In this document: positions 10,257-29,481 of the stretch, one piece after another
How the letters are laid out: every line of letters begins with the position of its first letter
How positions within the stretch are numbered: the stretch's first letter is position 1
Source of the DNA: Thermococcus litoralis DSM 5473
Lineage (GTDB): Archaea; Methanobacteriota_B; Thermococci; Thermococcales; Thermococcaceae
Assembly: GCF_000246985.2 (NCBI RefSeq)
Contig: NC_022084.1
Coordinates: 648,476 to 682,692 of the forward strand
DNA: 34,217 nucleotides
Reading direction: 5' to 3'
Notes under the pieces: generated by a model
Seen by the model: the letters and a program-made list of their open reading frames with translations, nothing else
Told to the model about the DNA's origin: nothing
Databases searched by the model: none
Position numbers and translations under genes: made by a program

Positions 10257-10259
10257 TTG

Positions 10260-10280
10260 CTCTCTTTTTTATTCTTTTCA
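10260..10280 (+). terminator. T-rich putative terminator after the metallophosphoesterase
   Basis: A pyrimidine tract with a run of six T and further T clusters directly follows the stop codon, the usual form of a Thermococcales terminator. A TATA candidate (TTTTTAAAC, about 10300-10308) for the next gene follows. Confidence 0.45.
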
Positions 10281-10340
10281 TTGATCCCATATAGAAGAGT
10301 TTTTAAACCCACTTGCCTTCCCCATTCTAGGTGATGCCCT

Positions 10341-10952
10341 TTGAAATTTAAGGGGAAAGCTTTTGGCAATTTAGTTAGAATCGAATTTGAGATACTCAGC
10401 CTTAGCGAGCTTAAGATTGAAGACTTAAAAGATTTTGACATAGAGAACCTAAAAATTGAGCTTAAACCAACTTCTTCTGGGATAAAGATAGTCGGAATAT
10501 GGGAAGGTGAGGTAGAAAAAGCTGGTGAGGGCATAAAGAAAGCCCTCGAAGAGAGTTATAAATTGAGAGATAAGATACTAAACAGGATGAAGGCAAAGAT
10601 TGAGAGAATAAGGGGAGTCATGAAAAAGCTTGGGTTTACTGAAGAGGTTTTAGGTTATGGAAACCTTATCAAGTTCACAAAAAAGATTGGTGATTACGAA
10701 ATAGCAGTTGTTGCTTCCTCCAAAGATGACCTTATTAGAGTGGAAGTTTATGGAAATGACAAGAAGGTAATAGGGCCAGAGATTGAGAACTTCTTTGAAG
10801 ACGTAGACGTAGAGGAGCTCGAGGTTTACGGGTTAGATGAGGAAGCACAAGAAGAGAGACTCGTAATAAACCTTGAACTGCCAGAGGAAGAAGTACCAGA
10901 AACAAAAATAGTAGAGGCAATAAAATTAATCGAAAGCCTCTTGATGACCTAA
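10341..10952 (+). CDS. Conserved-looking hypothetical protein, TTG start
   Basis: I do not recognise this 203-aa protein. It is acidic, has no signal peptide or membrane helix, and alternates beta-rich segments (VRIEFEILSLSEL, IKIVGIWEGEV, YEIAVVASSKDDLIRVEVYG) with a Lys/Arg-rich amphipathic helix (about residues 65-100). The start is TTG at 10341: the only nearby ATG (10334) is out of frame and stops after five codons, while GGTGATG at 10330-10336 is a good ribosome binding site for the TTG. It converges directly on the nuclease-like gene at 10953 with no spacer. The composition resembles an intracellular two-domain alpha/beta protein. Confidence 0.7.
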   Translation: MKFKGKAFGNLVRIEFEILSLSELKIEDLKDFDIENLKIELKPTSSGIKIVGIWEGEVEKAGEGIKKALEESYKLRDKILNRMKAKIERIRGVMKKLGFTEEVLGYGNLIKFTKKIGDYEIAVVASSKDDLIRVEVYGNDKKVIGPEIENFFEDVDVEELEVYGLDEEAQEERLVINLELPEEEVPETKIVEAIKLIESLLMT

Positions 10953-13106
10953 TTACTTATATTTTGCCTCTAATTGGATTTTCTTTATCTTTGCCATCAA
11001 ACCTTTCTTGGGCAACGTGTCTTCCTCCAAAATCTTGCCACTTCTCAGATCTATTTTTGCATAGTAAATCGACTTATCGCCTACTAGTTTTATCACTGCA
11101 TATCCTTTTTCCTTGTAAACGACTATCCTTTCCGTATTGAGGTTCTTTTCATTGAACTTTTCCAGTATATACCTCTTGTAGCTCTCCTCAATCACTATCT
11201 CAGTCAGGAAAACGTCGCTCTTTAGTATTTCCCCAGAACTTCTACCTATCAGAAGCTCTCCCACTCTTTCTTCTCCGACAAATTTAACTTTCCAGTTCTC
11301 ATTAAGTTTTATCTCCTTTATGGTTGCAGGTATTCCTTTCTCTTCCAAGAATTTCTCCGCTATCTCCCTTACCACCTCAATTTTCAGCTGTCTATCTAAT
11401 TCGTTCAAAATTTTTCCATCTTTGCTAAGGGATATTCTTAGAATAGATTTGTCATTCTCAAGCTCAGCCTTGTAAACTTCATTCTCCTTCTCCAGCTTCT
11501 TTATTTCCCATCCCTTATATTTTTGGAGGATTATCTCTCTGGCTTTCTGAGGACTTATCTCAACGAAATAATCTATTATGTCTCCCGTTTTTCCATCGGC
11601 ATTTACCTTAATCTTCCCGTCAACACTCTCAAGGAGTAGCTCTAAATGGGTTGCATCGTAGAATTTGAAGTCAACAAGCTCAAGCCCCTTTATGTCAAAA
11701 TTCTTTTCAATAAGGTTCTTAGCAGAATTTGCAATCTGATAAGGATGAAGGAGGTTTGCAACTACTTTATGTTCACCGTTCTCTAAGTTGAATTCAAGAA
11801 CCACGACTTCCTTTGGAGTCATCACGTCTACTATTGCCCTATTTTCTTTTTCATCAAAGAATATCACTTCTCCGTCAGGATACAGTTTGGCGATTTCAGA
11901 GAATATTGCCTCACGTTTCATTTTTGACTTTCTTTTCATGATCCTACCACTGTAAAGATGCAGAGCAATCCCAAAAACAAACCGTTTAGTTTGTCCACTT
12001 ATAATAGCTACGGAATCTTTTTCCTCTACAGAAATTTCTTCTGGGTTCTCTCCGAGAGATTTTTTGCACTCTTCTCTGGCTATTTCGATGAGCTTTTCCT
12101 TTGGAAGAGGGGTTATGTCTATTTTAATGTCATTCGTTTTAAGATCGACTTCAGCCTTGGCAGAATTTATGCCCACTTTGAGTGTCAATAGAGCTCTATT
12201 CGGGACATAAACCTTCCTTCTAGAACTTAGATAGATATTCGTTTGGGGAATCTCAAGTTCATCTGCAAGTTTTAATTTGAGAGCTATCACCGCCTCATTT
12301 TGAGAAATGGGGGATGTTATTTCAACTTCACTAGCTTTTATTGCAGACTCGCTTTCCAAGAGGGCTCTTGATACTTTTCTTTCCAATTCAACGTCTCTGC
12401 TTACAAAAGGGATTACTTCTTCCTTTGACAAAATTACTGCTTTGTCTTTTACCTCCTCTGTGTCTTTTTTAGCAGACCACAGGATTATATAGCCGGTAGA
12501 AAGCTCAACTACCAGCTCTTCTAGGAAAATGTCCTCTCGTTTTGTTTTATACCGAGATTCCATGAGCGATACGACCATTTCAAGAATTTTATTGGGTGAA
12601 AACGAGTATAACAATGGTGCATCCAAACGTATAACCTTCAACATGCCCCTTCTTTTGGCCTCTTCTTCTTTCTCCATCCTTTCCCTTTTGAGCCTTTCAA
12701 CTAACTCATGGGGTACTGGAATTTCCCTGTCATTTAATTCCTTAACAAACCTCTCTCCATCCCAGGGAATTATTTTCCCCTTGTATTCTCTCCCCAAGAG
12801 CACTTTTGCATCCTTTGTGAATCCACTAACAGAAAGAAAAATCCCTCTATCTGCTTTAGCTTTTATGATGGCCTCTGCAAATTCTTCAACTTCCTTAGAA
12901 GATGCTAACCCTTTTGTTTTTACCTTTATTGCATACTTCTCAAGTCCAGATATTGGATCCTCACGGAGGGCTATGAAGTCGATTTTCCACTCTTCAGCTC
13001 TTACTCTCTCGGCTTCTTTAAACCCCAAGGATTCAATGAGTCGTTGAACGATACGAATTATATCCTCATCAGAGGCAGAGTTCAATATTTCCAACGTCCA
13101 TTCCAT
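10953..13106 (-). CDS. Mrr-like nuclease-domain protein with PepSY-like repeats
   Basis: The first 130 residues resemble the Mrr/restriction-endonuclease-like PD-(D/E)xK fold: an N-terminal helix, D43 in WKIDFIAL, then KVK at residues 61-63 in place of the usual Q-x-K, and KADRGIFLSVSGFTKDA, a hallmark of Mrr domains. The remaining 580 residues form a chain of units, each a helix (AREIILQKY, VREIAEKFLEEKG) followed by beta strands and a turn such as YAKIDLRSGKIL or GKTGDIIDY, closely resembling PepSY repeats. There is no signal peptide, so the protein is predicted to be cytoplasmic. I chose ATG 13106 (GTGAT upstream, TATA-like sequence about 35-45 bases away) over ATG 13142, which has no ribosome binding site. 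The altered QxK motif leaves nuclease activity uncertain. Confidence 0.7.
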   Translation of the reverse strand: MEWTLEILNSASDEDIIRIVQRLIESLGFKEAERVRAEEWKIDFIALREDPISGLEKYAIKVKTKGLASSKEVEEFAEAIIKAKADRGIFLSVSGFTKDAKVLLGREYKGKIIPWDGERFVKELNDREIPVPHELVERLKRERMEKEEEAKRRGMLKVIRLDAPLLYSFSPNKILEMVVSLMESRYKTKREDIFLEELVVELSTGYIILWSAKKDTEEVKDKAVILSKEEVIPFVSRDVELERKVSRALLESESAIKASEVEITSPISQNEAVIALKLKLADELEIPQTNIYLSSRRKVYVPNRALLTLKVGINSAKAEVDLKTNDIKIDITPLPKEKLIEIAREECKKSLGENPEEISVEEKDSVAIISGQTKRFVFGIALHLYSGRIMKRKSKMKREAIFSEIAKLYPDGEVIFFDEKENRAIVDVMTPKEVVVLEFNLENGEHKVVANLLHPYQIANSAKNLIEKNFDIKGLELVDFKFYDATHLELLLESVDGKIKVNADGKTGDIIDYFVEISPQKAREIILQKYKGWEIKKLEKENEVYKAELENDKSILRISLSKDGKILNELDRQLKIEVVREIAEKFLEEKGIPATIKEIKLNENWKVKFVGEERVGELLIGRSSGEILKSDVFLTEIVIEESYKRYILEKFNEKNLNTERIVVYKEKGYAVIKLVGDKSIYYAKIDLRSGKILEEDTLPKKGLMAKIKKIQLEAKYK

Positions 13107-14468: not shown

Positions 14469-14491
14469 AATCAACCTATTGTAGCTTTTTC
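14458..14491. terminator. Perfect 10-bp inverted repeat spanning two convergent stop codons
   Basis: GAAAAAGCTA (14458-14467) and TAGCTTTTTC (14482-14491) are perfect inverse complements with a 14-base loop. The repeat covers the ends of both pgk and the convergent permease gene and ends in a T run on either strand. It could act as a bidirectional terminator. Chance from the coding ends cannot be excluded. Confidence 0.45.
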
Positions 14492-15241
14492 AAATTCAAT
14501 CATGGCTACTCCCACAAGGAAAAGAGCCAGCAACGCTAGTACTCCAACGTCAGTTGTTAGGGCAAATTTTGTTACGTTTTCTCCAACAAGGAAATGTCTT
14601 GCTCCATCAACTGCGTAGGTTAAGGGGTTGATGTAAGCTAAGGCTCTCATCCATGAGGGCATTGCGTCTATTGGGTACATCGCGCCGCTCAGGAAGGTCA
14701 GCGGGAGCATGATGATGCCCAATACCATCTGGAAGCCCTCCATGCTCTCCATCTTCAAAGCCAGGCTGACGCCAAAGCCCTGGAAAGCTATCGAGAGCAG
14801 GAAGCCGATTCCAAGGACAGGAAGGAAGCCGCTCAGCTTGAGGCTCTCCGCGAGCGGGTAGGTGAGGACGAGTATTATCGCTCCCTGAGCCAGCGTCACG
14901 AGCGAGTCGCCGATTATCCGCCCCAGGATGCTCCCCCTCCTCGATGCGGGGGCAACAAGGACCTCCTTGAGAAAGCCGAACTGCTTGTCCCAGATGACGC
15001 TCATTCCACCCATGAAGCTCATGTTGAAGACCGTCATGGCGAAGATACCCGGCGCGAGGAATGTGAGGTAGTCAACTCCCCCGAAGATCATCTTCGCCAT
15101 GGGGTTGTCGAAGACCTTGCTCCACCCGAGGCCGAAAAAGACGAGCCAGATTAGTGGGTTGATTACCATCCCGAATACCCTCGACCTCGCCCTGGTGAAC
15201 CTCTTGAGCTGCCTGTAGGCCATCGTGGTTAGCGCCTCCAT
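14471..15241 (-). CDS. ABC-2 type exporter permease (DrrB-like)
   Basis: This membrane subunit of a drug/lipid-type exporter has about six hydrophobic helices, with the ABC-2 landmarks FLAPGIFAMTVFNMSFMG, DKQFGFLKEVLVAPASRR and LSGAMYPIDAMPSWMRALAYINPLTYAVDG. The length of 256 aa is normal. Its ATPase lies directly upstream; the ribosome binding site GGAGGTGAG overlaps the ATPase stop codon. Two ATG codons are adjacent; the second (15241) has the better spacing. Base composition changes inside the gene: the part encoding the last 55 or so residues (14471 to about 14640) is near 45% G+C, the rest 53-60%. That suggests a recombination junction within the gene. Confidence 0.88.
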   Translation of the reverse strand: MEALTTMAYRQLKRFTRARSRVFGMVINPLIWLVFFGLGWSKVFDNPMAKMIFGGVDYLTFLAPGIFAMTVFNMSFMGGMSVIWDKQFGFLKEVLVAPASRRGSILGRIIGDSLVTLAQGAIILVLTYPLAESLKLSGFLPVLGIGFLLSIAFQGFGVSLALKMESMEGFQMVLGIIMLPLTFLSGAMYPIDAMPSWMRALAYINPLTYAVDGARHFLVGENVTKFALTTDVGVLALLALFLVGVAMIEFEKATIG

Positions 15242-16690
15242 CATCTCACCTCCTCATCCTCATTCTCACGAAGGCCGCCATCGGGTTTTCAGGGCTTTCA
15301 TCCCTTATCTCCCTGCCCGTCAGGTGGAGGAAGACGTCGTTGAGCGTGGGCCTGTGGTAGGTAACCTCGAGGATTCTTATTCCTCTCTCATTTGCGAGCT
15401 CGAAGAGCCCCGGGAGCGCTTCGGCAGCGTTTTCCACCTCAAGCGCCACCCTGCCGTCGGGAAGAACCTTGCATCCCCTGATGAAGCCACCTTCGAGGCA
15501 CTTGAGCTCCTCGGGAGCTTCGAGTTTAAGATAGATCACGTCGTTTCCGACGAGCTTTTTGAGCTCCTCGGCAGTTCCTTCGGCGATTATCTTACCGTGA
15601 TCTATGATGGCTATCCTGTCCGCTAACATCTCCGCCTCGTCCATGTAGTGCGTTGTGAGGAAAATCGTCATGTTGTGCTCCTCCTTCATGGCACGAATGT
15701 AGTCCCAGATGTGAGCCCTCGTCTGCGGGTCGAGGCCTATCGTCGGCTCATCGAGGAAGAGAACCTCCGGCTCGTGGAGGAGGGAGCGCGCTATCTCAAG
15801 CCTCCGCTGCATCCCTCCGCTGAAGGTCTTGACTGGTTTGTCCTTGAACTCCCAGAGCTCGACGAACTTGAGGAGGCGCTCTATCTTCTCCCTCAACTCG
15901 TTCCCCTTCAGCCCGTAAATCCTCCCGTGGATGTACATGTTCTCCCAGGCGGTGAGATCCCTGTCGAGGCTTGAATCCTGGAAGACTATGCCTATCCTTT
16001 TCCTGACCTCCATAGGCTCTTCAACAACGTCGTGTCCAGCTACAATGGCCTTTCCCGAGGTCAATTTTAGGAGAGTAGTTAAAACATGAACCGTAGTTGT
16101 TTTCCCTGCCCCGTTCGGCCCGAGGAAGGCGAATATCTCTCCCCGCTTAACCTTAAAGGAGACCCCTTTAACGGCCTCAAAGTCCCCGTACTTCTTGACG
16201 AGGTTTTCAACAACTATTGCTTCACTCATTCCGTTCCCTCCTTTATCTCGCCCAACAGAATCAATCTAACCCTCTTCGTGAACTCTGCAAATTCCTTCGC
16301 GAGGGCCCTCTTCTGCTCCTCGCTCATCTCGCTGATCGAGTTGAAGGCCTCCTTGAGAACTTCCGCCAGCTCTCTGCCGCCGAGCCTCGCGAATTCCTTA
16401 AAGCGCTCTGCGGTCTCAATGGCTTCATTCACCTCATACTCGTGCTCCTTTAGGTATTCCTTCCCCTTCTCGGTTATGCGGTAGAGCTTCTTCTCCCTCT
16501 TTCCCTCGCCGGCGACCTCTATAAGGCCGGCCCTCTTCAGGGAGGCTAGGATGGGATAAATCGCCCCAGGACTCGGGTGGGGCATGCCGTACCTCTTTTC
16601 CAGCTCCGCCATTATGCCGTATCCATGAAGCGGGCCTTCTTCCAGGAGCTTCAAAACGAGGAGTTTAAGATGTCCCTTAAACCTCGGTCG
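14640..16690. other. GC-rich segment, probably horizontally acquired
   Basis: Hand-counted lines here are about 53-65% G+C, against 43-45% in pgk and the extreme 3' end of the permease gene. Third codon positions are rich in G and C, unlike every other gene in the window. The segment coincides with the PadR-ATPase-permease operon, ending inside the permease on the left and near the PadR start on the right. A higher-GC Thermococcus is the likely donor type (inference). Confidence 0.75.
15246..16229 (-). CDS. ABC exporter ATPase (DrrA-like)
   Basis: This ATPase partners the ABC-2 permease encoded downstream. It shows Walker A GPNGAGKTT near residue 40, the Q-loop VFQDSSLDRDLT, the signature FSGGMQRR, Walker B VLFLDEPTIGLD, the H-loop TTHYMDEAE and a C-terminal accessory domain (EGTAEELKKLVGNDVIYLKL onward) like DUF4162 in DrrA. 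The length of 327 aa is normal. It overlaps the PadR gene stop by 4 bases and is followed after 4 bases by the permease, so the three genes form one operon. PadR control suggests induction by a toxic or membrane-active compound; the cargo is unknown. Confidence 0.92.
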   Translation of the reverse strand: MSEAIVVENLVKKYGDFEAVKGVSFKVKRGEIFAFLGPNGAGKTTTVHVLTTLLKLTSGKAIVAGHDVVEEPMEVRKRIGIVFQDSSLDRDLTAWENMYIHGRIYGLKGNELREKIERLLKFVELWEFKDKPVKTFSGGMQRRLEIARSLLHEPEVLFLDEPTIGLDPQTRAHIWDYIRAMKEEHNMTIFLTTHYMDEAEMLADRIAIIDHGKIIAEGTAEELKKLVGNDVIYLKLEAPEELKCLEGGFIRGCKVLPDGRVALEVENAAEALPGLFELANERGIRILEVTYHRPTLNDVFLHLTGREIRDESPENPMAAFVRMRMRR

Positions 16691-16696
16691 CTCCAT
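16226..16696 (-). CDS. PadR family transcriptional repressor
   Basis: The product is a winged-helix regulator. The PadR signature is clear: KLLVLKLLEEGPLHGYGIMAEL, then SPGAIYPILASLKRAGLIE, a wing (GKREKKLYRITEKGKEYL) and a C-terminal dimerisation helix pair (about 85-155). I chose ATG 16696 over GTG 16705 because the GTG lies within the GGTGA ribosome binding site (16702-16706). It leads the exporter operon and most likely represses it through the paired GATATATC boxes just upstream. The protein is full length at about 156 aa. Confidence 0.92.
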   Translation of the reverse strand: MERPRFKGHLKLLVLKLLEEGPLHGYGIMAELEKRYGMPHPSPGAIYPILASLKRAGLIEVAGEGKREKKLYRITEKGKEYLKEHEYEVNEAIETAERFKEFARLGGRELAEVLKEAFNSISEMSEEQKRALAKEFAEFTKRVRLILLGEIKEGTE

Positions 16697-16706
16697 TTCT
16701 TTCACC

Positions 16707-21726: not shown

Positions 21727-22037
21727 TCTCTGCAGAAAAATAATCCAACCCTTATTTTATTTTTCTTCCATAATTCGATATTTGAAGTTCTGTTTTTGTA
21801 AGGCGCGAGTTTACATGAAACTTTGTTTAAAGTTTTGTTTGAATTTGTCAAAATGCTCTAATTCTTTGTAAACGTCATAATTACTACATTCCCACATAAT
21901 ACAAAAGTATATATTACTTAAGTCCTATTCATAGTAATAAGTTGAGTTTTTTGAGTGCCTGGTACCTTACCAAAAGGCTATCAAAAGGCTGGTTCTCAAA
22001 TAACTCAGATACACAGCGTAAGAGGGGGTGAAAATAA
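21727..22037. other. Intergenic region with promoter and tandem 9-base repeat
   Basis: This 311-base stretch holds no convincing gene. Just after the beta-subunit stop there are T-rich tracts fit for termination. AGTATATATT (about 21907-21916) is the TATA candidate for the SnoaL-like gene and would give a leader of about 100 bases. The leader contains CAAAAGGCT twice (21971-21979 and 21982-21990, 11-base period), a spacing that puts both copies on one DNA face. GGGGGTGA (about 22024-22031) is the ribosome binding site. A frame from TTG 21942 to the TGA at 22029-22031 encodes about 29 residues but has no ribosome binding site or recognisable sequence. Confidence 0.5.
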
Positions 22038-22457
22038 ATGAGCACAGAAAGAAAAAGAATCCTCCAAACGATAATCGACGAAATCTGGAACAGGGGAAAT
22101 GTGGAAGTAATAGACAAGTTTTACACACCAAATTTCAAAAATCACCATCCTAATATTCCTGAGGTTTCAGACTTTGCCTCATTTAAAAAATGGGTAGTTG
22201 AAGTTCACAAGACGCTTCCAGATTTTCACGCAACTATCGAAGACATGATAGCTGAGGAAGATAAAATTGCGGTACGGTGGACAGTAACTGGAACCCAAAA
22301 GGGCGAGTTTATGGGAATTCCACCTACTGGAAAAAAGGTCCGCTTTGAAGGTATGACTGTATACCGCTTCGAAGGAGATAAAGTTGCAGAAATGTGGTGG
22401 GTAAGCAACGAGATTGCTATTTTACGACAGCTTGGTGTTTTTCCACCAAAAAGATGA
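22038..22457 (+). CDS. SnoaL-like ester cyclase family protein (NTF2 fold)
   Basis: A 139-aa cytoplasmic protein of the SnoaL/ester-cyclase group of the NTF2-like superfamily. The pattern is characteristic: IIDEIWNRGNVEVIDKFYTPNFKNHHP, then TLPDFHATIEDMIAEEDKIAVRWTVTGTQKGEFMGIPPTGKKV, then FEGMTVYRFEGDKVAEMWWV. The substrate pocket His and Asp residues of the family are present, but family members have diverse or unknown substrates. The start at 22038 has an excellent GGGGGTGA. Its end overlaps the convergent UPF0282 reading frame by 36 bases, which is unusual and may reflect an extended end of that damaged gene. Confidence 0.88.
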   Translation: MSTERKRILQTIIDEIWNRGNVEVIDKFYTPNFKNHHPNIPEVSDFASFKKWVVEVHKTLPDFHATIEDMIAEEDKIAVRWTVTGTQKGEFMGIPPTGKKVRFEGMTVYRFEGDKVAEMWWVSNEIAILRQLGVFPPKR

Positions 22458-23551
22458 CATCATTTGCATTCTCTGAACTGATCTCCTTTTTTTATTTTTA
22501 AGAGTGACTTCCAGAACTTTTGGCTTCTTTCCCAAGAACTCGGCGGCCGTTAAAACACTTTTGTTGAGCTTTTCTCCAACTTCCCACACCTCTCTCGTAT
22601 GCTCCCTAAAATGACGCTCTCGCGGGAGGTGGTGATCGTAGATAATAGTCTCTGCATCTGTCTCTTTCACAATTCTAACCGCATTTTCAATTGCTCTTCT
22701 TAAATTGATTTTATTGAGGAGGTAACCAAGCATATATGTCATAGGGCCGTCTAAGACTAAGATATCTGGATTTTCTCTAATTATCCACTCCGCATAGTCT
22801 TCTATTATAGGGCCATTTAAATCACTTGAATGGATTAACTTTTCTTCTTCATGTTCAATAACAGTTGAAATCACCCAACCCACTCTTGAAAACTCTATTC
22901 CATGAAAGAGAGGTTTCGTAAATTTGACTTTTGTGTCTCCAAACTGAAATTCTCTCCCATCAGCAAACACAACTCGAAGATTCTTGAAACTCATCTCAGG
23001 AATTTTTGGGTTTCGATTCCATTTATTGACCCTATTTCTGAACCACTTAAGGCCTTTTTCAAGGAGTTGTTTCCTTCGCTTGTTGTAATCTCCGAAATCC
23101 TTGGAGAATGCTATTGGTAGCTCTTCCATTGGATTTGGATATTCTCGCGATTCTGGTTCTTTCCAGATATCCTCCAACTTTAATTCTCCATAATACCTGT
23201 AGAAATTGGAATAAAAATACTCGGCTCGTTCTCTCTGGGAATCGTTTATATACTCATTTGGGTTCTTAACTAAGAGTGTTTTTCCCCATACATATCTAAA
23301 TCGCTTGGAAAGTAGTGATCGTAGTGATAGTGAGAAATTACAATAATATCGGCCTTTTCACTGGCCTTTTTTATTGCCTTCTCCCCCTCAATAAGCCATT
23401 CGATTTTCTCTTCTTCAGTGGCTGGAAAACTTGGATGCATAATAGCGACACCCGGATCTATTAAGATCGAGATGTCAGGTGTTTTAACGAAGACACATGA
23501 ACTCTTGGATCCCAAGGAATCAAACCACACAGGCTTAAAGGAGAGTACCAT
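22422..23551 (-). pseudogene. UPF0282 metallo-beta-lactamase-fold protein, frameshifted
   Basis: Two minus-strand reading frames together make one UPF0282-type metallo-hydrolase. The N-terminal part (23551-23270) has ILIDPGVAIM and the metal motif SHYHYDHYFPSD, then runs into TAG. The C-terminal part continues in another frame: from the A5 run (plus-strand T run 23279-23283) the new frame reads KTLLVKNPNEYINDSQRERA and flows into EDIWKEPESREYPNP, FHGIEFSRVGWV and LIHSSDLNGPIIEDYAEWI. One missing A (A5 for A6) would restore the whole protein. This is either a true frameshift mutation or a homopolymer sequencing error. The last residues (KNKKRRSVQRMQ onward) look unlike a family terminus and overlap the neighbouring gene. 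Confidence 0.85.
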
Positions 23552-23762
23552 GTTATGAAGTTAATCCTCCAAGATTTAAATCTTAGCTTCCATCACTATC
23601 TTTGGATGAGATGCTTATAAAGAATTAAATTTTTATTTACTATTCAAAGTTTTATATAGTTACTCATTTGTAATCTAGAAGAAGGAGCTTTTTAAGGACT
23701 TACTTTTTTTTTAAGAAATTTAGAAACTTGAAGTTGGTAACTTAGAGTTTACGAAAAGAATA

Positions 23763-23810
23763 AATATTTATAGCAACATATCAAATTATGCATAATGTTA
23801 AACTGGAGGG
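23763..23810 (+). promoter_or_regulatory. Promoter of the RiPP-like operon
   Basis: AATATTTATAG (23763-23773) is a good TATA element; a transcript start near 23794 and the ribosome binding site GGAGGG (23805-23810) follow before ATG 23818. The AT-rich spacer back to 23552 otherwise holds a nine-T run (23704-23712), a short inverted repeat AAGTT-GGT-AACTT (23731-23743) that might bind a regulator, and the divergent TATA candidate of the UPF0282 gene (CTTTATAAG on the minus strand, about 23612-23620). Confidence 0.6.
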
Positions 23811-23817
23811 AGTATTA

Positions 23818-23988
23818 ATGGGAGAGTATATCCCTCCCATCGGAGAGGATCTTGGACACGGGCTTGGAAGTGTTGTAGTTGAAGTCGGTGGCCCAGGACC
23901 AATATTCACTCAGATTATGCCAGTCCTTTTCGTAGTTATTTGGTCCTTACCGTTAAAAGACAAAACCTCAGGAGGTGAAAGTGCATGA
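23818..23988 (+). CDS. Small RiPP precursor-like peptide A (56 aa)
   Basis: I find no known family. The peptide opens MGEYIPPIGEDLGHGLG, is Gly-rich to about residue 27 (VEVGGPGP), has one hydrophobic stretch (IFTQIMPVLFVVIWSLPL, about 29-46) and ends in a polar tail. The motif YIPPIGEDLG (residues 4-13) recurs as YLPPVGGDVG in the next gene, so the two are related at the N-terminus only. ATG 23818 is chosen because GGAGGG stands 7 bases upstream; the in-frame ATG 23788 has no such site. The stop overlaps the start of peptide B (ATGA). The following radical SAM and PqqD-like genes make a modified-peptide precursor the best interpretation (inference). Confidence 0.75.
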   Translation: MGEYIPPIGEDLGHGLGSVVVEVGGPGPIFTQIMPVLFVVIWSLPLKDKTSGGESA

Positions 23989-24245
23989 GCTATTTGCCTC
24001 CTGTTGGGGGTGATGTTGGTATTACTTCAGGAATTACCAAAGAAATAGCAATAAGCCATGCGTATGTATTAAATGTTGGCGGTACGGTTATGGCGGCTGC
24101 GGCAGTATGGGTTATTGCTGCAATGTATGTCGCAGTTGTTTGGGGAGTAGCAGCATGGATAGCAAAGTGGCTTTTACATGGCAATGCTTCCCTAATTAGA
24201 GATCCAAAGATACAGCATAGCACCTTGAGTAAAAACTTGACATAA
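23985..24245 (+). CDS. Small RiPP precursor-like peptide B (86 aa)
   Basis: No known family was recognised. It starts MSYLPPVGGDVG, sharing the Y-[IL]-P-P-[IV]-G-x-D-[LV]-G motif with peptide A at the same position. Residues 13-33 are mixed, residues about 34-66 are a long Ala/Val/Trp-rich membrane-seeking segment (TVMAAAAVWVIAAMYVAVVW and on to KWLLHG), and the last 20 are polar (IRDPKIQHSTLSKN). The ribosome binding site GGAGGTGA (23971-23978) is a perfect consensus, suggesting high expression. It lies 12 bases before the radical SAM start. It could be a maturase substrate with a membrane-active core, like some circular bacteriocins, or a small membrane partner protein. Confidence 0.75.
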   Translation: MSYLPPVGGDVGITSGITKEIAISHAYVLNVGGTVMAAAAVWVIAAMYVAVVWGVAAWIAKWLLHGNASLIRDPKIQHSTLSKNLT

Positions 24246-24257
24246 AAGGTGAAGATA

Positions 24258-25442
24258 ATGAGACTGGGTGTTGGCAGTCTATCAAATGAACTTCAAACGT
24301 TTTATTATTCTTTTTCGAATATTCTCAGCAGATTTATTCAAATGTCAACTGGTACAAATGTACCTTACAGGGCTGGGGAATTAAAAGAGATCCCAGAGAT
24401 ATTTAGCGAGCTTAGAAGTCTTTATCGTAAGTATCGCATCTGGCCGGAAAATCTAAAGGGCCCTGTTTCTGCAGCAATCGATGTTACATATCGATGTAAC
24501 TACAATTGTCCCTATTGTTACATTGGTTGTTCTCCAGATGTAATTCGCAGAGAACTCAGCAGAGAGGAGATATTTAATGTCATAGACGAACTGGCGAAAT
24601 TAAATGTTCTGGTCTTATGTTTATGTGGAGGTGAGCCAACACTTCGTAGGGATTTGTTTGATATTATACAATATGCTAACGAAAGGGGGATCGATGTTAA
24701 CATGGTAACTAATGGCTCATTAATATCCGACAACTTTGCTTCAAAACTTGCTGAAAGTGGTATTGCCGCTGTCCAAGTATCTTTAGATGGCTCCAGACCT
24801 GAGATTATGGAAAAACTAAGACCTAAAGGTTCATACAACAGAGCTATCAACGCAATAAAGAATCTGATCGAATACAATATTCCAACAATTGTAAGTTTCT
24901 GTTCAACAAAACTAAATATAGATAACTTTCCAGAAACTGTTGAGTTATGTGACAAACTTGAGGTTTTATCTGTTCGCACAATGTATTTTGTTCCTGAAAC
25001 CTTCGAACATGTGAAACTAATGCCGACTGATGATCAATACAGGAAATTAATAACGTGGATATTCGAACATAGTTTTGAGTATTCCACTAGAATTGAATTT
25101 GGCGATCCAACAGAGCATATCATAATAGGTCCATATGTCTCACTGATTTCCCTTTCAATAAGTGCAGAAGGTTATATTCTTCCCACTCCATATTTGAGTT
25201 TGGCTTACGGTCATGTTTCAGATGGAATAGAAAAACTATGGAAAGAAGGTTTGGAATATGCATGGAGAGATAACCCTGTGCTTTTATCAATATCCTCCTA
25301 TCTAAAAACTGAGAGAGATATCCTCAAGTTGAAATCTCTCTTTATGACAAGGATAGGTTCAGATTACTTGGATATATTACAATTAAATGAAGAAGATTTG
25401 TCCATTCTAGCAAGAAATATTAGGGAGGTGTTATCAACATGA
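24258..25442 (+). CDS. Radical SAM peptide maturase-like enzyme
   Basis: This is a radical S-adenosylmethionine enzyme of the PqqE/MoaA-like type. The cluster motif C80-x3-C84-x2-C87 (CNYNCPYC) and GGEP (124-127) are intact, followed by the barrel segments VNMVTNGSLIS and VQVSLDGSRPEIMEKLRPKGSY. About 70 residues precede the barrel. Near residues 295-325, AEGYILPTPYLSLAYGHVSDGIEKLW matches the SPASM phrase G.v.PC.yl..GNv..s..eiW, but no Cys occurs in the last 150 or so residues, so auxiliary iron-sulfur clusters are not expected. ATG 24258 has GGTGA five bases upstream. The stop overlaps the PqqD-like gene. Likely job: cross-linking or epimerising the upstream peptides (inference). Confidence 0.88.
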   Translation: MRLGVGSLSNELQTFYYSFSNILSRFIQMSTGTNVPYRAGELKEIPEIFSELRSLYRKYRIWPENLKGPVSAAIDVTYRCNYNCPYCYIGCSPDVIRRELSREEIFNVIDELAKLNVLVLCLCGGEPTLRRDLFDIIQYANERGIDVNMVTNGSLISDNFASKLAESGIAAVQVSLDGSRPEIMEKLRPKGSYNRAINAIKNLIEYNIPTIVSFCSTKLNIDNFPETVELCDKLEVLSVRTMYFVPETFEHVKLMPTDDQYRKLITWIFEHSFEYSTRIEFGDPTEHIIIGPYVSLISLSISAEGYILPTPYLSLAYGHVSDGIEKLWKEGLEYAWRDNPVLLSISSYLKTERDILKLKSLFMTRIGSDYLDILQLNEEDLSILARNIREVLST

Positions 25443-25870
25443 TAACTAATAGCTTGATAACCAATATTGATAAGCATATTAACGGTTTGCTAACTGAAGT
25501 AAGCTCTGATAAATATATGATCAGCTTACTCAAAAATTTAAAATTTAGATTCGAGAGAGATGGGAGAGTTGTGGGATTTAATCCAATTACATGGAAAATC
25601 ACCGTGATGAATCCAACCATGGGGGAGATCATAAAAATACTCCAGAAAAAAGGGAGTGTAAAATTTTCAGACCTTGTCACGCATCTGTGTCTTATCTATC
25701 CAGAAACCCCAAGGAGGATAATAAAAAATGACTTAAAAAACGCCATATTATGGTTATTTACCAACGAATTTATATATCTCCAGAAGCAGAATACCGATAT
25801 CCACTTCGTAGATATACTGAGGGACATCATGCAAAACAACAACAAAGAGCGTGAGAATAATGGTGGATAA
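25439..25870 (+). CDS. PqqD-like RiPP recognition element protein
   Basis: Residues about 30-115 fit the PqqD fold: RFERDGRVVGFNPITWKITVMN, then MGEIIKILQKKGSVKFSDLV, then an amphipathic helix and LKNAILWLFTNEFIYLQ. This matches the PqqD order of a short beta hairpin, N-x-T, I..L...G.., a helix and a final L...gli. PqqD proteins bind the leader of a precursor peptide and present it to the radical SAM partner. At 143 aa it is longer than PqqD (about 90 aa), with extra N- and C-terminal tails. It overlaps the radical SAM stop (ATGA) and has GGGAGGTG upstream, so the two are translationally coupled. The identification is by eye and fits the context strongly. Confidence 0.75.
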   Translation: MITNSLITNIDKHINGLLTEVSSDKYMISLLKNLKFRFERDGRVVGFNPITWKITVMNPTMGEIIKILQKKGSVKFSDLVTHLCLIYPETPRRIIKNDLKNAILWLFTNEFIYLQKQNTDIHFVDILRDIMQNNNKERENNGG

Positions 25871-26297
25871 TTCTATTTTGTTGTCCTTATTTATTACATT
25901 AGGAATAGTTGGGCTAGTCCTTGCACTCATAAAATATGGCTTTTTTGATGCATATGTGCCCCATGCAGTTATTATTCGACATGAGAACAACCAAGTAATT
26001 CTTGTAATAAAAACAAAAAGGAGAACAGTTCCAATTAGAGTTAGAGATTTCCAAGTTAAAGATTACCGAGATGTGCTTGTCTGGAGACTTGGGGGGCTAG
26101 AATTTGGCCGGTATAGAATTGGCAAATACAAAGGTAAATATGGAGAGGTAGTTTCCTATGCCAGTTCAGATTCTGGCTTGCTCATAGAGGCCACAGACGG
26201 GAAAAGATACTACCTAGCTTTTGATAATATTCATGAGGTTATAGATGCTATACTGGACGAAAGCATAAAAGAAAAAGTCATAGAGGTGAGAAAATAA
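25860..26297 (+). CDS. Membrane-anchored protein with possible bacterial PH-like domain
   Basis: One N-terminal membrane helix (residues about 5-24, LLSLFITLGIVGLVLALI) is followed by a compact beta-rich domain of about 110 aa (HAVIIRHENNQVILVIKTKRRTVPIRV, GLLIEATDGKRYYLAFDN) closing with an amphipathic helix (IHEVIDAILDE). This order of strands and a terminal helix resembles bacterial PH domains. The start is ATG 25860 (GTGAG upstream) rather than GTG 25851; it overlaps the PqqD-like gene by 11 bases and the permease start by one base. In such an operon, self-protection or exporter assistance is a reasonable guess, but nothing in the sequence proves it. Confidence 0.65.
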   Translation: MVDNSILLSLFITLGIVGLVLALIKYGFFDAYVPHAVIIRHENNQVILVIKTKRRTVPIRVRDFQVKDYRDVLVWRLGGLEFGRYRIGKYKGKYGEVVSYASSDSGLLIEATDGKRYYLAFDNIHEVIDAILDESIKEKVIEVRK

Positions 26298-27100
26298 TGG
26301 GAATTAAGCCAGTACTCATGAAAGAGGTCTGGCAGTACTTTGCAAACAAACAGTTGGCTGGACTATTAGCAAATGCTGTAATTATACTTGTTATTGGAAT
26401 GTTGTTGATTGTGAGTGGACCAAGGTACTTAACATCCTATTCAAAACAGCTTGCCATGGAGCAAATATCTGAGAGCCCTTTAGTGTTTGGACTTTCTGAA
26501 AATGAAGTAGCAAAAATGGGCGAAGATGCAATAACATTTGCCGCCCTGATATCCCAATTATCGGTAGTTGTAATATTAGTATCTGCCTTGAGTTCTTATG
26601 CTTCAATTGTCTCCTCTTTTTTCAATGAGAAATTAAATAAAACTATGGAAATCCTTTTTTCATCTCCTCTTTCAGAATCCGAGATACTCCTGGGGAAATT
26701 GTTATCGACAGTGTTCTTCAGTTTGCTCTCATGGGGCTTTGCTTTTGCATCTCTTTTCTTCCTCATCCAGTATCTACATCTAAAAGCACTAGGAAGTATA
26801 TGGCATCCCACACTATACTTCATTATCATCACAGTGTTCGTTCCTTTTTCAATGATGATGTTCTCTATTAGCACAGGACTAGTAGTGAGTGTAAAAATAA
26901 AGAGCTCAGAGCTTATAAACCTAATGAGCTTGCCTTTAGTTTTGACGCCAATTATAATATCCTTTGCATCGGCAAAATTAGGGTTAAACAGAACATTCCA
27001 GATATATCTGCTCCTGGGGATTTGTTCTTTGGTAGCTTCACTAATAATAGCAATGTTGGGCAAGCGTGTCATCAATCGCTTGGCATTCATTACAAATTAA
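26297..27100 (+). CDS. ABC-2 type exporter permease (NatB-like)
   Basis: The product is a membrane protein of 267 aa with about six hydrophobic helices. It has a cytoplasmic start (MGIKPVLMKEVWQYF), a long extracytoplasmic loop after helix 1, and the ABC-2 phrase FFNEKLNKTMEILFSSPLSESEILLGKLLSTVFF before helices 3-6. It belongs with the ATPase encoded downstream. The start overlaps the previous stop by one base, and GAGGTGAG provides the ribosome binding site. Likely function: export of the mature peptide product, or immunity by removing it from the membrane. Base composition is as AT-rich as its operon neighbours. Confidence 0.88.
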   Translation: MGIKPVLMKEVWQYFANKQLAGLLANAVIILVIGMLLIVSGPRYLTSYSKQLAMEQISESPLVFGLSENEVAKMGEDAITFAALISQLSVVVILVSALSSYASIVSSFFNEKLNKTMEILFSSPLSESEILLGKLLSTVFFSLLSWGFAFASLFFLIQYLHLKALGSIWHPTLYFIIITVFVPFSMMMFSISTGLVVSVKIKSSELINLMSLPLVLTPIIISFASAKLGLNRTFQIYLLLGICSLVASLIIAMLGKRVINRLAFITN

Positions 27101-27111
27101 GGGGTGATTTC

Positions 27112-28014
27112 ATGCTTGAGGTCGAAAATATCAGTGCAGGTTATGGTAACGGCGATGTTATAGAAAATCTAAGCTTTATCGCAATAAAAAAGGAAATTTA
27201 TGTATTATTGGGAGCCAATGGTGCAGGTAAAACCACAACATTTAGAGCAATCACCGGTATTTTGCCGCTTTCCAGTGGTAGGGTCGTAGTTGATGGAATT
27301 GATCTTTGGGTGGAACCCGAAAACGCTAAAAGAAAGATGGGGTATCTGCCGGAGGGAGAGAGAGTTTATCCAGATCTAACGGTCTACAAGAATCTGCGAT
27401 TTTTCGCCAAGATCTATGATGTTGAAGAAGAACGGATTAATGAACTTCTAAAAGAATTTAGACTTGAAAAATACAAAAATACAAAAGCCGGATATCTAAG
27501 TAGAGGCTTTAGAAAGAGGCTCGCTTTAGCGAGAGCATTGCTTCACAATCCAGACATTCTAGTTTTGGATGAACCGTTTAGCAATTTGGACATTCCAACA
27601 GCTTTAAGCTTAAGAGACAAAATTTTTGAGATGCTGAAAGAAGGCAAAATCATTCTGTTTTCGACCCACATTCTAAGCGAGCTCCAGAATTTTGAGGGGG
27701 TAAAATGCAGGGTTGCAATAATGAAGGAGGGAAAGCTCGTTTTGGAGGAAAGATTGGAGAATTTACTAAGTAAAGTTAGTAGCATTGAAGTGGTGTTTAA
27801 AGTTGATAAAAAAATAAGGGCAAAAGAACTCTTAGAGAAGTTTGGGTATAACGTTAACGTGGAAAACACGGGAATTTCTGTGATGGTTTCAAGGTATAAT
27901 GATGAAGTTCCAGCGATCATGAAGATATTGCTCACCCAAGGGATTAATGTATATGAAGTGAAACCAAAAGAGACTCCTATAGAGAAAATATTCACCGGAA
28001 TCCTAGAAAAATAG
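27112..28014 (+). CDS. ABC exporter ATPase of the RiPP-like operon
   Basis: This 300-aa ATPase has Walker A GANGAGKTT near residue 37, the Q-loop region YLPEGERVYPDLTV, Walker B ILVLDEPFSNLD and the H-loop STHILSEL. The signature reads LSRGFRKR instead of LSGGQ, as in some CcmA/NatA-like exporters. The C-terminal 85 residues form an accessory domain. ATG 27112, 11 bases after the permease stop, has GGGGTGAT upstream; the longer frame from 27022 is only the permease gene read out of frame. It is the last gene of the operon, and 40 bases later the reverse-strand MFS remnant begins. Confidence 0.92.
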   Translation: MLEVENISAGYGNGDVIENLSFIAIKKEIYVLLGANGAGKTTTFRAITGILPLSSGRVVVDGIDLWVEPENAKRKMGYLPEGERVYPDLTVYKNLRFFAKIYDVEEERINELLKEFRLEKYKNTKAGYLSRGFRKRLALARALLHNPDILVLDEPFSNLDIPTALSLRDKIFEMLKEGKIILFSTHILSELQNFEGVKCRVAIMKEGKLVLEERLENLLSKVSSIEVVFKVDKKIRAKELLEKFGYNVNVENTGISVMVSRYNDEVPAIMKILLTQGINVYEVKPKETPIEKIFTGILEK

Positions 28015-28053
28015 CAGGATTGGAATAGCTAGCAAACAGCCACTTAATAAACC

Positions 28054-28737
28054 CTAACAAGCTTTGTCTTCAAGAAAGTAGAAAAGAGGTAAAAATGTTT
28101 CAATACTTTGATAAGCCATATAAACAGCTGCATCCAACAGACCAAGAAGAAAGAGGGTGGAACTAAATGAAAACTCAAACTTCTCTAATTCTCCTTCTGC
28201 TTCAGGTAACGTAAAAGTTATTGCAAAGGTAATAAATCCAAAGAAAGAACACAAAATAAAAACAATCCAAAATCCTGCGAAATATATTAAGCTCCCTGCC
28301 AATAACGGAGCAATGGCTCTCCCCACGAGAGTTGCAGAACTTAAAATCCCCATAAAAGTACCTTTCTTTTCAGAATATAAGTCACTGATTAAAGCAAGGG
28401 AAACAGGAACAAATATAGCAGTTGCTATCCCATAGTAGGCCCTTACCAAAGCTAACGCTATAGCATTGTTAGCAAAGAAGTAAAGAAGGGGCGCAGAGAA
28501 GAATACAAAGCCGCTTATTTTAAGAAGCTTTTTTCGCCCATAGATATCGCTCAAAAGCCCTGAGACAAAGTTCATAAAAATACCCGTTATAGTTGATGCC
28601 GCCGCAACAATTCCAATCTCTCCCCTGCTTAACCCCAAACTTTGAGCATAGAGTGGCAAGGTTGGAGATTTACTCATGGTAGAGCCGAGTATTGCAAAAA
28701 ATCCTGCTATTAGGATTGCGTAAAGTATCTTCTTCAT
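28054..28737 (-). pseudogene. MFS transporter, C-terminal half missing
   Basis: The N-terminal half of a major facilitator is clear: helix 1 (LYAILIAGFFAILGSTMSKS), PLYAQSLGLSRGEIG, the loop motif GLLSDIYGRKK, then helices to about TM7 (LFLLGLLDAAVYMAYQSIE). At 227 aa it has barely half the usual 380-400. After TAG at 28054-28056 the same frame continues hydrophobically as GLLSGCLLAIPILLFF to 28003, exactly where the RiPP-like operon ends, and no further MFS sequence exists. So the gene seems cut at the operon boundary and also carries a stop. ATG 28737 has GGGGT upstream; the nine codons before it lack a ribosome binding site. Confidence 0.8.
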
Positions 28738-28821
28738 GTTTACCCCACAGAAGTTTGACTCCAAGATATTAAATCGTTCTCATTAGATAAATACTTAAGC
28801 TTCAAGCTTCAAAGAGATAAT

Positions 28822-29481
28822 ATGCCGGAAATAGACCTTAATGGGAAGAAGATCCAGTACGAAGTCAGCGTGAGAAGGGTAAGATATGTGAGAATCTACG
28901 TAAGTCCAGAGGGAAAACTCTACATCGTCTCTCCAACGAGAAGAGTTGAAAGGTTCCTAAAAGAAAAGGAGGATTGGATACTCTCAAAGCTTGAGAAAAT
29001 TGAGAGGGCAAAAAACATTCGAGGGTTTCCTTATCTGGGAAAGTTCTACCCATTTAGGGATGGAAAGATTTTCACCGATAACAAAGTTTTAGAAGTTTCA
29101 GACAAAAGAAAGCTTGAGAAAACTCTAAAAAACGAGCTTAGAACATTATTGGTGCCCCTTGTTGAAGAACGTGCTGCGAGTTTAGGTGTCAAGCCAAAAA
29201 GAATTTTCATCCGAAAACAGAGAACGAGATGGGGAAGCTGCTCCCCAAAGGGGAACCTAAGCTTCAATTTAGCAATGCTGGCTTTACCTCCGGAGCTCAT
29301 TGACTATCTCGTAACACATGAAGTAGCCCACTTAGTTGAGATGAACCACTCCAAAAAGTTTTGGACGTTGGTTGAGGAATCCCATCCAGACTGGAGGAAA
29401 AAGAGGAAAGAACTTAAGGATTGGTGGGTAATTATCCACAACAACCCCATCTGGAGAGAGATACTGGGGGGAAGAGAATGA
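28822..29481 (+). CDS. YgjP/DUF45-type zinc metallopeptidase
   Basis: A 219-aa soluble protein of the YgjP-like (DUF45, WLM/SprT-like) family. The N-terminal half is a beta domain (YEVSVRRVRYVRIYVSPEGKLYIVSP). The catalytic region is KQRTRWGSCSPKGNLSFNLAMLALPPELIDYLVTHEVAHLVEMNHSKKFW in consecutive order, giving zinc ligands HExxH plus a downstream His of the NHSKKFW phrase. The family is associated with type I restriction loci in some bacteria but stands alone in archaea. It ends overlapping the MBL-fold gene (ATGA), so the two are a coupled pair. Confidence 0.9.
   Translation: MPEIDLNGKKIQYEVSVRRVRYVRIYVSPEGKLYIVSPTRRVERFLKEKEDWILSKLEKIERAKNIRGFPYLGKFYPFRDGKIFTDNKVLEVSDKRKLEKTLKNELRTLLVPLVEERAASLGVKPKRIFIRKQRTRWGSCSPKGNLSFNLAMLALPPELIDYLVTHEVAHLVEMNHSKKFWTLVEESHPDWRKKRKELKDWWVIIHNNPIWREILGGRE

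Follow-up and report, generated by a model that had tools for sequence, protein, structure and literature searches.

A window of 34,217 nt from Thermococcus litoralis DSM 5473 (positions 648,476 to 682,692 of NC_022084.1, the single 2.2 Mb contig of genome G000) contains a compact set of seven co-directed genes, encoding two small peptides, a radical S-adenosylmethionine (SAM) enzyme, a PqqD-like protein, a membrane-anchored bPH_5 domain protein and the permease and ATPase of an ABC-2 transporter. Sequence comparison indicates that this is a real, conserved and horizontally moving cluster of the Thermococcales, of the kind that makes ribosomally synthesised and post-translationally modified peptides (RiPPs), and that no named class tested here fits it. 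We consider it probable that the genes encode a pathway in which a peptide is guided by a RiPP recognition element (RRE), modified by the radical SAM enzyme and exported. A preliminary description of the same DNA had already read it as a RiPP locus; this is supported overall, and neither of the two refutation tests put forward with it, on the fold of the PqqD-like protein and on radical SAM homologs lacking the peptide genes, went against it.

In the proposed pathway the precursors would carry an N-terminal leader with the motif Y-x-P-P-x-G, and the PqqD-like protein, as a discrete RRE, would bind this YxxP-type leader and hand over the precursor for modification. The radical SAM enzyme would operate with its SAM-binding iron-sulphur cluster only and would modify the hydrophobic remainder of peptide 2, rich in Ala, Val, Ile and Asn, and perhaps peptide 1. 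The ABC-2 transporter, together with the bPH_5 protein, would then export a membrane-active product and shield the producer. RRE binding, modification, export and antimicrobial activity are all steps that we infer.

A conserved leader motif and gene order

The N-terminal motif that the preliminary description had seen in both small peptides recurs well beyond the window. In 12 out of 12 aligned peptides the Y, both P and the G of the motif Y-x-P-P-x-G are unchanged; two of these peptides (those of locus L049) came from a motif scan, so that the motif is present there by construction and they do not test it. Searched across the order (94 genomes), a DNA pattern for M-x-Y-x-P-P-x-G-G-[D/E] occurs at 7 sites, each of them a peptide 2 gene of this cluster, and its reversed control found none. 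All seven genomes with the pattern carry the radical SAM and PqqD-like genes. Conversely, the pattern is present in seven of the eight genomes with the PqqD-like gene, the eighth being G081, which is cut by a contig end within the radical SAM gene. In addition, the motif scan returned no peptide at the broken radical SAM gene of G016.

Peptide 2 behaves as expected for a precursor, with a mean identity of 79% in the leader versus 31% in the remainder (5 peptides, 10 pairs, leaving out the frameshifted peptide of L048 and the first peptide of L049). The remainder is hydrophobic and rich in Ala, Val, Ile and Asn, and in the window it includes a transmembrane-like stretch within residues 26-64. 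Cysteine is absent from all 10 peptides of this family examined, and neither window peptide has a match among the Pfam and NCBIfam models (E up to 1).

With an E limit of 1e-40, 9 of the 94 genomes have the radical SAM enzyme, and the PqqD-like profile matched over its full length in 8 (G080 has two further partial matches); a search of 115 genomes of the phylum returned a full PqqD-like gene in no genome beyond the same 8. The preliminary description had proposed looking for the same gene order in other Thermococcales, and it recurs in six loci: L044 (G080), whose proteins are identical to those of the window, L009 (G056), L047 (G093), L048 (G018; peptide 2 frameshifted), L049 (G068; peptides found by the motif scan) and L046 (G021; radical SAM and ATPase genes frameshifted). 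A further locus, L053 (G081), meets its contig end inside the radical SAM gene. Radical SAM identity to four other Thermococcales genomes with this order is 44-84%, to which one near-identical and one frameshifted copy are added. A scan of genome contigs returned one Thermococcus metagenome-assembled genome and eleven distant radical SAM proteins; it missed members found in the order-level search, and absence beyond the order is thus weakly tested.

Organisation of the locus

All seven open reading frames (ORFs) of the preliminary description are present on one strand at the positions it gave (Table 1). Successive genes are separated by -11 to +12 bases: -4 between the two peptide genes, +12 before the radical SAM gene, -4 between this and the PqqD-like gene, -11 before the bPH_5 gene, -1 before the permease gene and +11 before the ATPase gene. 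Strong ribosome binding sites had been claimed for every gene; a Shine-Dalgarno-like stretch does lie upstream of six of the seven starts, the one at the bPH_5 start being weak. The cluster had also been described as AT-rich, at 27-35% G+C in sampled lines, which holds as a tendency but overstates the bias of the whole: the acquired segment has 37.1% G+C versus 42.2% in the remaining window (41.6% for the window as a whole), and AT-richness is lower in the peptide genes (46.8% and 42.9% G+C for peptides 1 and 2) than in the other cluster genes. None of the seven genes codes for a leader protease. A sigma-70 promoter scan, which carries no information in an archaeon, gave 17 matches against 16.1 expected.

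Table 1. Positions of the cluster genes and of the features at the cluster borders within the window.
Feature	Position	Strand	Remarks
Precursor peptide 1 (P0001)	23818..23988	+	56 aa; putative leader MGEYIPPIGEDLG; no Cys; in 6 of 94 genomes including the window genome
Precursor peptide 2	23985..24245	+	86 aa; putative leader MSYLPPVGGDVG; hydrophobic remainder; no Cys
Radical SAM enzyme (P0003)	24258..25442	+	394 aa; PF04055, 1.2e-29
PqqD-like protein (P0004), probable discrete RRE	25439..25870	+	143 aa; profile comparison and model
bPH_5 domain protein (P0005), membrane-anchored	25860..26297	+	145 aa; PF10882, 23.0 bits (cut-off 22.5)
ABC-2 permease (P0006)	26297..27100	+	267 aa; PF12698, 34.2 bits (cut-off 31.6)
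ABC transporter ATPase (P0007)	27112..28014	+	300 aa; PF00005, 2.8e-29
Acquired segment carrying the cluster	23555..28057		blastn homology ends at 23552-23554 and restarts at 28058
Major facilitator superfamily (MFS) transporter gene, truncated at right cluster border	28054..28764	-	236 aa versus 383 aa in G075
Metallo-beta-lactamase-fold gene, left border	22422..23551	-	two ORFs (22422-23177, 23270-23551) versus one 355-aa ORF in G075

The PqqD-like protein as a candidate discrete RRE

The link between the fourth gene product and PqqD comes from profiles and from a predicted fold. PF05402 matches two of the six members of the PqqD-like family (best E 3.7e-4). By hhalign, the family alignment compared with two PF05402-passing proteins gave 96.3% (E 1.7e-9), and a negative control with the bPH_5 alignment gave 0.05%. 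An AlphaFold2 model built from a two-sequence alignment has three strands followed by three main helices, the order expected of the winged helix-turn-helix fold in PqqD and discrete RREs. When this model was compared by VIA-align with 404 of the candidates of Foldseek, the top rows were PqqD (5sxy, Z 5.1, 3.0 Å over 77 residues) and the TbiB1-leader complex (5v1v, Z 5.0, 2.0 Å over 62 residues; 5v1u, Z 4.7), and TigE, a radical SAM protein, stood at row 20 (Z 2.4). The leaders agree with this assignment. Lasso RREs recognise YxxP, and RRE groups including PqqD and StsC have W/Y/LxxP/L/I in common (PMC12710340); in LPP and lasso systems, discrete RREs bind [Y/W]xxPx[L/V/I/F/A] (PMC13381572). 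The YIPP and YLPP of the window leaders conform to YxxP.

Several results weigh against this assignment. The window protein itself scores 13.3 bits against PF05402, under the cut-off of 23.4. The two-protein set behind the value of 96.3% was hand-picked, and one of its members, from L092, was already matched by the profile at 3.8e-5; with the same alignment, a mixed eight-member set gave 44% and 27 sequences of the commoner Thermococcales PqqD type gave 0.13%. Its search of PDB sequences returned no match, and Foldseek returned nothing for the model at E 0.001 or better. The model has a low mean pLDDT of 60 (a single-sequence run was poor, at 49), and the unrelated Nab2 (Z 4.6) follows closely behind the PqqD and TbiB1 rows. 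In the structure prediction that the preliminary description had proposed as a check, the strand and helix order and the top rows resemble PqqD, at scores too low to decide on the fold. Taken together, profile link and weaker fold link suggest that the protein is likely a discrete RRE.

Elsewhere in the same genome, G000:C1:1549885-1555245 holds a second radical SAM gene with two PF05402 genes, and similar PF05402 gene pairs, about 5 kb apart, occur in G077 and G078.

The radical SAM enzyme and its chemistry

The CxxxCxxC motif lies at C80, C84 and C87 and, with C121 and C123 of a CxCGGEP sequence, it makes up the only invariant cysteines of five aligned enzymes (counting neither the G080 copy, which is identical, nor the broken ones). 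No cysteine past position 123 of the kind found in SPASM or twitch domains is conserved in these five, no SPASM family matches the window enzyme at E up to 1, and GYVTPC of SkfB is aligned opposite GYilpt. The best NCBIfam matches of the core are the mycofactocin maturase (TIGR03962, MftC, at the top with 124 bits versus a cut-off of 265), WgkB, StsB, heme b synthase, ScmE and PqqE, all far under their cut-offs. Since these are several different maturases, the reaction cannot be named from sequence. The preliminary description had likened the locus to the pyrroloquinoline quinone (PQQ) and mycofactocin pathways, a likeness that stands for the logic of the genes and falls for the enzyme, which lacks the conserved C-terminal cysteines. 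Assignment as a PQQ or mycofactocin maturase was rejected on these cysteines and on the MftC score, and a sactipeptide or ranthipeptide assignment was rejected on the same lack of conserved SPASM cysteines along with precursors devoid of cysteine; none of these four chemistries fits an enzyme and substrates of this composition.

Our first choice, a tentative one that we hold as doubtful, is epimerisation to D-residues. It is favoured because of the cysteine pattern, the cysteine-free hydrophobic substrates and the discrete RRE gene placed right behind the radical SAM gene with an ATGA overlap. According to a published description, proteusin epimerases have the SAM cluster only, a C-terminal RRE and a critical cysteine (PMC8326336). 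Three points speak against it: C215 is present in four of the five aligned sequences (other non-invariant cysteines occur in single sequences), the critical Cys372 of PoyD matches the cysteine positions of the window enzyme poorly, and the known proteusin epimerases seem to be leader-independent (PMC8326336).

Some other single-cluster reaction (carbon-carbon, ether, dehydro or other) could take place within the same RRE-guided pathway, with which it is compatible, and we give it an appreciable chance short of even. The spread of the best matches over different maturases speaks for it, as does the fact that the epimerase idea builds on a cysteine pattern and on substrate composition. On the other side, a large share of RiPP radical SAM enzymes bear extra clusters in a SPASM or twitch domain (PMC8326336), and the corresponding cysteines are missing in all five enzymes here.

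Peptide 1 and the possibility of a signal or cofactor

Peptide 1 fits the role of precursor less well. Its mean identity is 76% in the leader versus 83% in the remainder (10 pairs, 5 loci), and L046, L048 and L049 yielded no copy of the usual form. Since it has neither a conserved leader with a variable core nor a constant presence, peptide 1 is unlike a typical variable-core precursor and may be a helper or a signal.

Its unusual constancy is also what speaks for a product that is a peptide-derived signal or cofactor, such as a secreted pheromone or a redox cofactor perhaps made from peptide 1, rather than an antimicrobial; the pairing of a radical SAM enzyme with PqqD, as in PQQ and mycofactocin, points in the same direction. 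We hold this to be unlikely, given that the PqqD-like gene is confined to so few genomes of the order with decayed copies elsewhere, unlike a cofactor gene, that the seven genes include no cofactor-using dehydrogenase and no receptor, and that peptide 2 varies between loci and contains a transmembrane-like stretch.

In L046 the usual place of peptide 1 is taken by a 33-aa peptide with seven cysteines (5575-5673). It has matches in 3 other genomes of the 94 (E 1.2e-8, 1.2e-8 and 0.003) and possibly represents a separate Cys-rich peptide family.

Proposed export and protection

The bPH_5 protein has a hydrophobic stretch at residues 1-33. Export of the two-peptide bacteriocin EntDD14 requires PH-domain proteins (PMC8657885), and such proteins stand alongside ABC transporters in leaderless-bacteriocin clusters (PMC11580447, PMC7332713); by analogy, the bPH_5 protein is a probable partner in transport or self-protection. 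A second locus of G080, L045, retains peptide 1 and full-length bPH_5, permease and ATPase genes; its PqqD-like gene is truncated and its radical SAM gene absent. This fits self-protection outlasting production, as a single case in which peptide 1 is still there.

The same locus can be read differently, with the bPH_5 and ABC genes as a separate resistance or stress transporter merely located downstream of a peptide-modifying pair. Besides the persistence of L045 without a radical SAM gene, the two halves of the cluster recombine separately, because the part from bPH_5 to ATPase is 97-100% identical between the window and G081 in 100-bp bins (one bin 91%) and the upstream part only 75-93%. Nonetheless, the halves stand together in all six loci read that span both, and the second G080 copy retains peptide 1 in front, which makes a separate transporter an improbable reading and one transport module serving the peptide the preferred one.

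L045 also contains, at 9995-12001, a second copy of the region upstream of peptide 1 (75%). Behind it come a leader in degenerate form, an ORF of 55 aa resembling an RRE on visual inspection, and a further ABC ATPase with a permease.

Insertion, recent movement and decay

The borders of the acquired segment were mapped by blastn against L112 (flanks 97% identical) and L113 (71-85%). In G075 the MFS and metallo-beta-lactamase genes are adjacent, without the cluster, and the segment stands in the window in place of 426 bp that form the MFS 3′ end in G075. As G081 retains most of this 3′ end beside its cluster, its loss in the window is probably secondary. Window positions 21900-29250 are 99-100% identical to G080 in 250-bp bins, and outside this tract identity is lower, at 90-96% to the left and 81-93% to the right. 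The tract, of about 7.3 kb, points to recent recombination. We found no integrase among the seven cluster proteins and no strong border repeat. The PqqD-like protein has no match in plasmids or phages, peptide 1 none in plasmids, and the radical SAM profile no confirmed relative in viral contigs; the radical SAM protein matched 456 plasmid records, with 25-31% identity among the 20 matches listed.

Between the window and L009, dN/dS is 0.09-0.21 over all seven genes (0.11 for peptide 1 and 0.21 for peptide 2). For peptide 1, the values among the three radical SAM-bearing loci compared are 0.11, 0.17 and 0.19, and 0.11-0.59 over all 10 pairs, which include the radical SAM-less L045 and the decayed L051; for peptide 2 they are 0.18-0.69 over 6 pairs. 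These ratios indicate that purifying selection is acting on the cluster genes. Relics exist in G016 (L050; radical SAM gene in pieces, a bPH_5 match, no PqqD-like match) and in G029 and G088, which have peptide 1 and fragments. These relics, the broken copy of G021 and the frameshifted peptide 2 of G018 might bring to mind a remnant that is inactive or in decay. For the window this is very improbable, as all seven genes are open, dN/dS is low and the tract shared with G080 speaks of recent spread.

The left flanks of L050 and L045 contain pieces of one flanking gene that is broken in a similar way (a shared peptide stretch), which suggests a common landing place or a common transfer. Elsewhere in the window, a PadR regulator, a DrrA-like ATPase and an ABC-2 permease lie at 14471-16705, where G+C reaches 56%; this DNA is probably foreign.

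Proposed product and its implications

Because of the bPH_5 and ABC-2 genes, the hydrophobic cores, the patchy distribution, the decayed copies, the radical SAM-less copy and the 7.3-kb tract, the cluster suggests a horizontally spread, bacteriocin-like peptide. We further speculate, with low expectation, that this is a new RiPP class of hyperthermophilic archaea, in which a radical SAM enzyme free of auxiliary clusters and a separate RRE would introduce D-residues into an Ala/Val/Asn-rich precursor, yielding an archaeocin of two components that inserts into membranes, has bPH_5 and ABC-2 for its export and tolerance, and is traded between Thermococcales species.

If correct, an RRE-guided, SPASM-less radical SAM RiPP family would be added in hyperthermophilic archaea, along with a candidate peptide weapon that has to function at high temperature. 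The cluster is a compact, testable parts list, which can be compared with a site that naturally lacks it, with copies that have undergone natural losses and with variant sequences, and some Thermococcus species, relatives of the cluster hosts, are genetically tractable. We found no name for this RiPP family, an earlier description of the locus not being excluded; nor did the literature searched contain a characterised radical SAM RiPP from Thermococcales, again with an earlier mention not excluded. Thermococcus has been named among the well-known antimicrobial-peptide-producing archaea, and archaeal antimicrobial peptides have been predicted from hydrothermal vents, in a text that does not contain the term 'radical SAM' (PMC13321764).

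Comparison with known systems

RiPP clusters are known in archaea (lanthipeptides) and radical SAM types have been predicted in Euryarchaeota (PMC12144867, whose main text has 0 occurrences of 'thermococc'); unlike the window, the characterised cases use other modification enzymes. PQQ and mycofactocin loci share with the cluster the small peptide, the radical SAM enzyme and the PqqD-type protein side by side, and they differ in their conserved SPASM cysteines and in their other pathway genes, which the window lacks.

Lasso and LPP systems are similar in their YxxP-type leader motif and in a small discrete RRE of the PqqD family, a probable one in the window, the TbiB1-leader complex being among the closest structural rows. 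They are dissimilar in that the window cluster has a radical SAM enzyme and has no macrolactam cyclase, leader peptidase or kinase. A lasso peptide was rejected as an identification: none of the seven proteins is an asparagine-synthetase-like cyclase or a leader peptidase.

The leaderless two-peptide bacteriocins (enterocin DD14 and aureocin A53-like clusters) likewise combine small hydrophobic peptides, PH-domain membrane proteins and an ABC transporter in published descriptions. Membership in that class fails, since the N terminus of the window peptides is conserved and leader-like; the radical SAM and PqqD-like genes, a PH family that is bPH_5 and the archaeal host are further differences.

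Finally, the proteusin epimerases (PoyD, OspD, PlpD and AvpD) differ in that the probable RRE of the window cluster is a separate protein and that the extra invariant cysteines stand at the GGEP strand; the nitrile-hydratase-like leader, a proteusin trait, has no counterpart in Pfam families on either window peptide at E up to 1. Their possible likeness to the window enzyme, which beyond the radical SAM core is one of description, would lie in the SAM cluster as the only cluster, an RRE following the radical SAM part and a critical cysteine, and Val and Ile are among the residues that they are described to epimerise.

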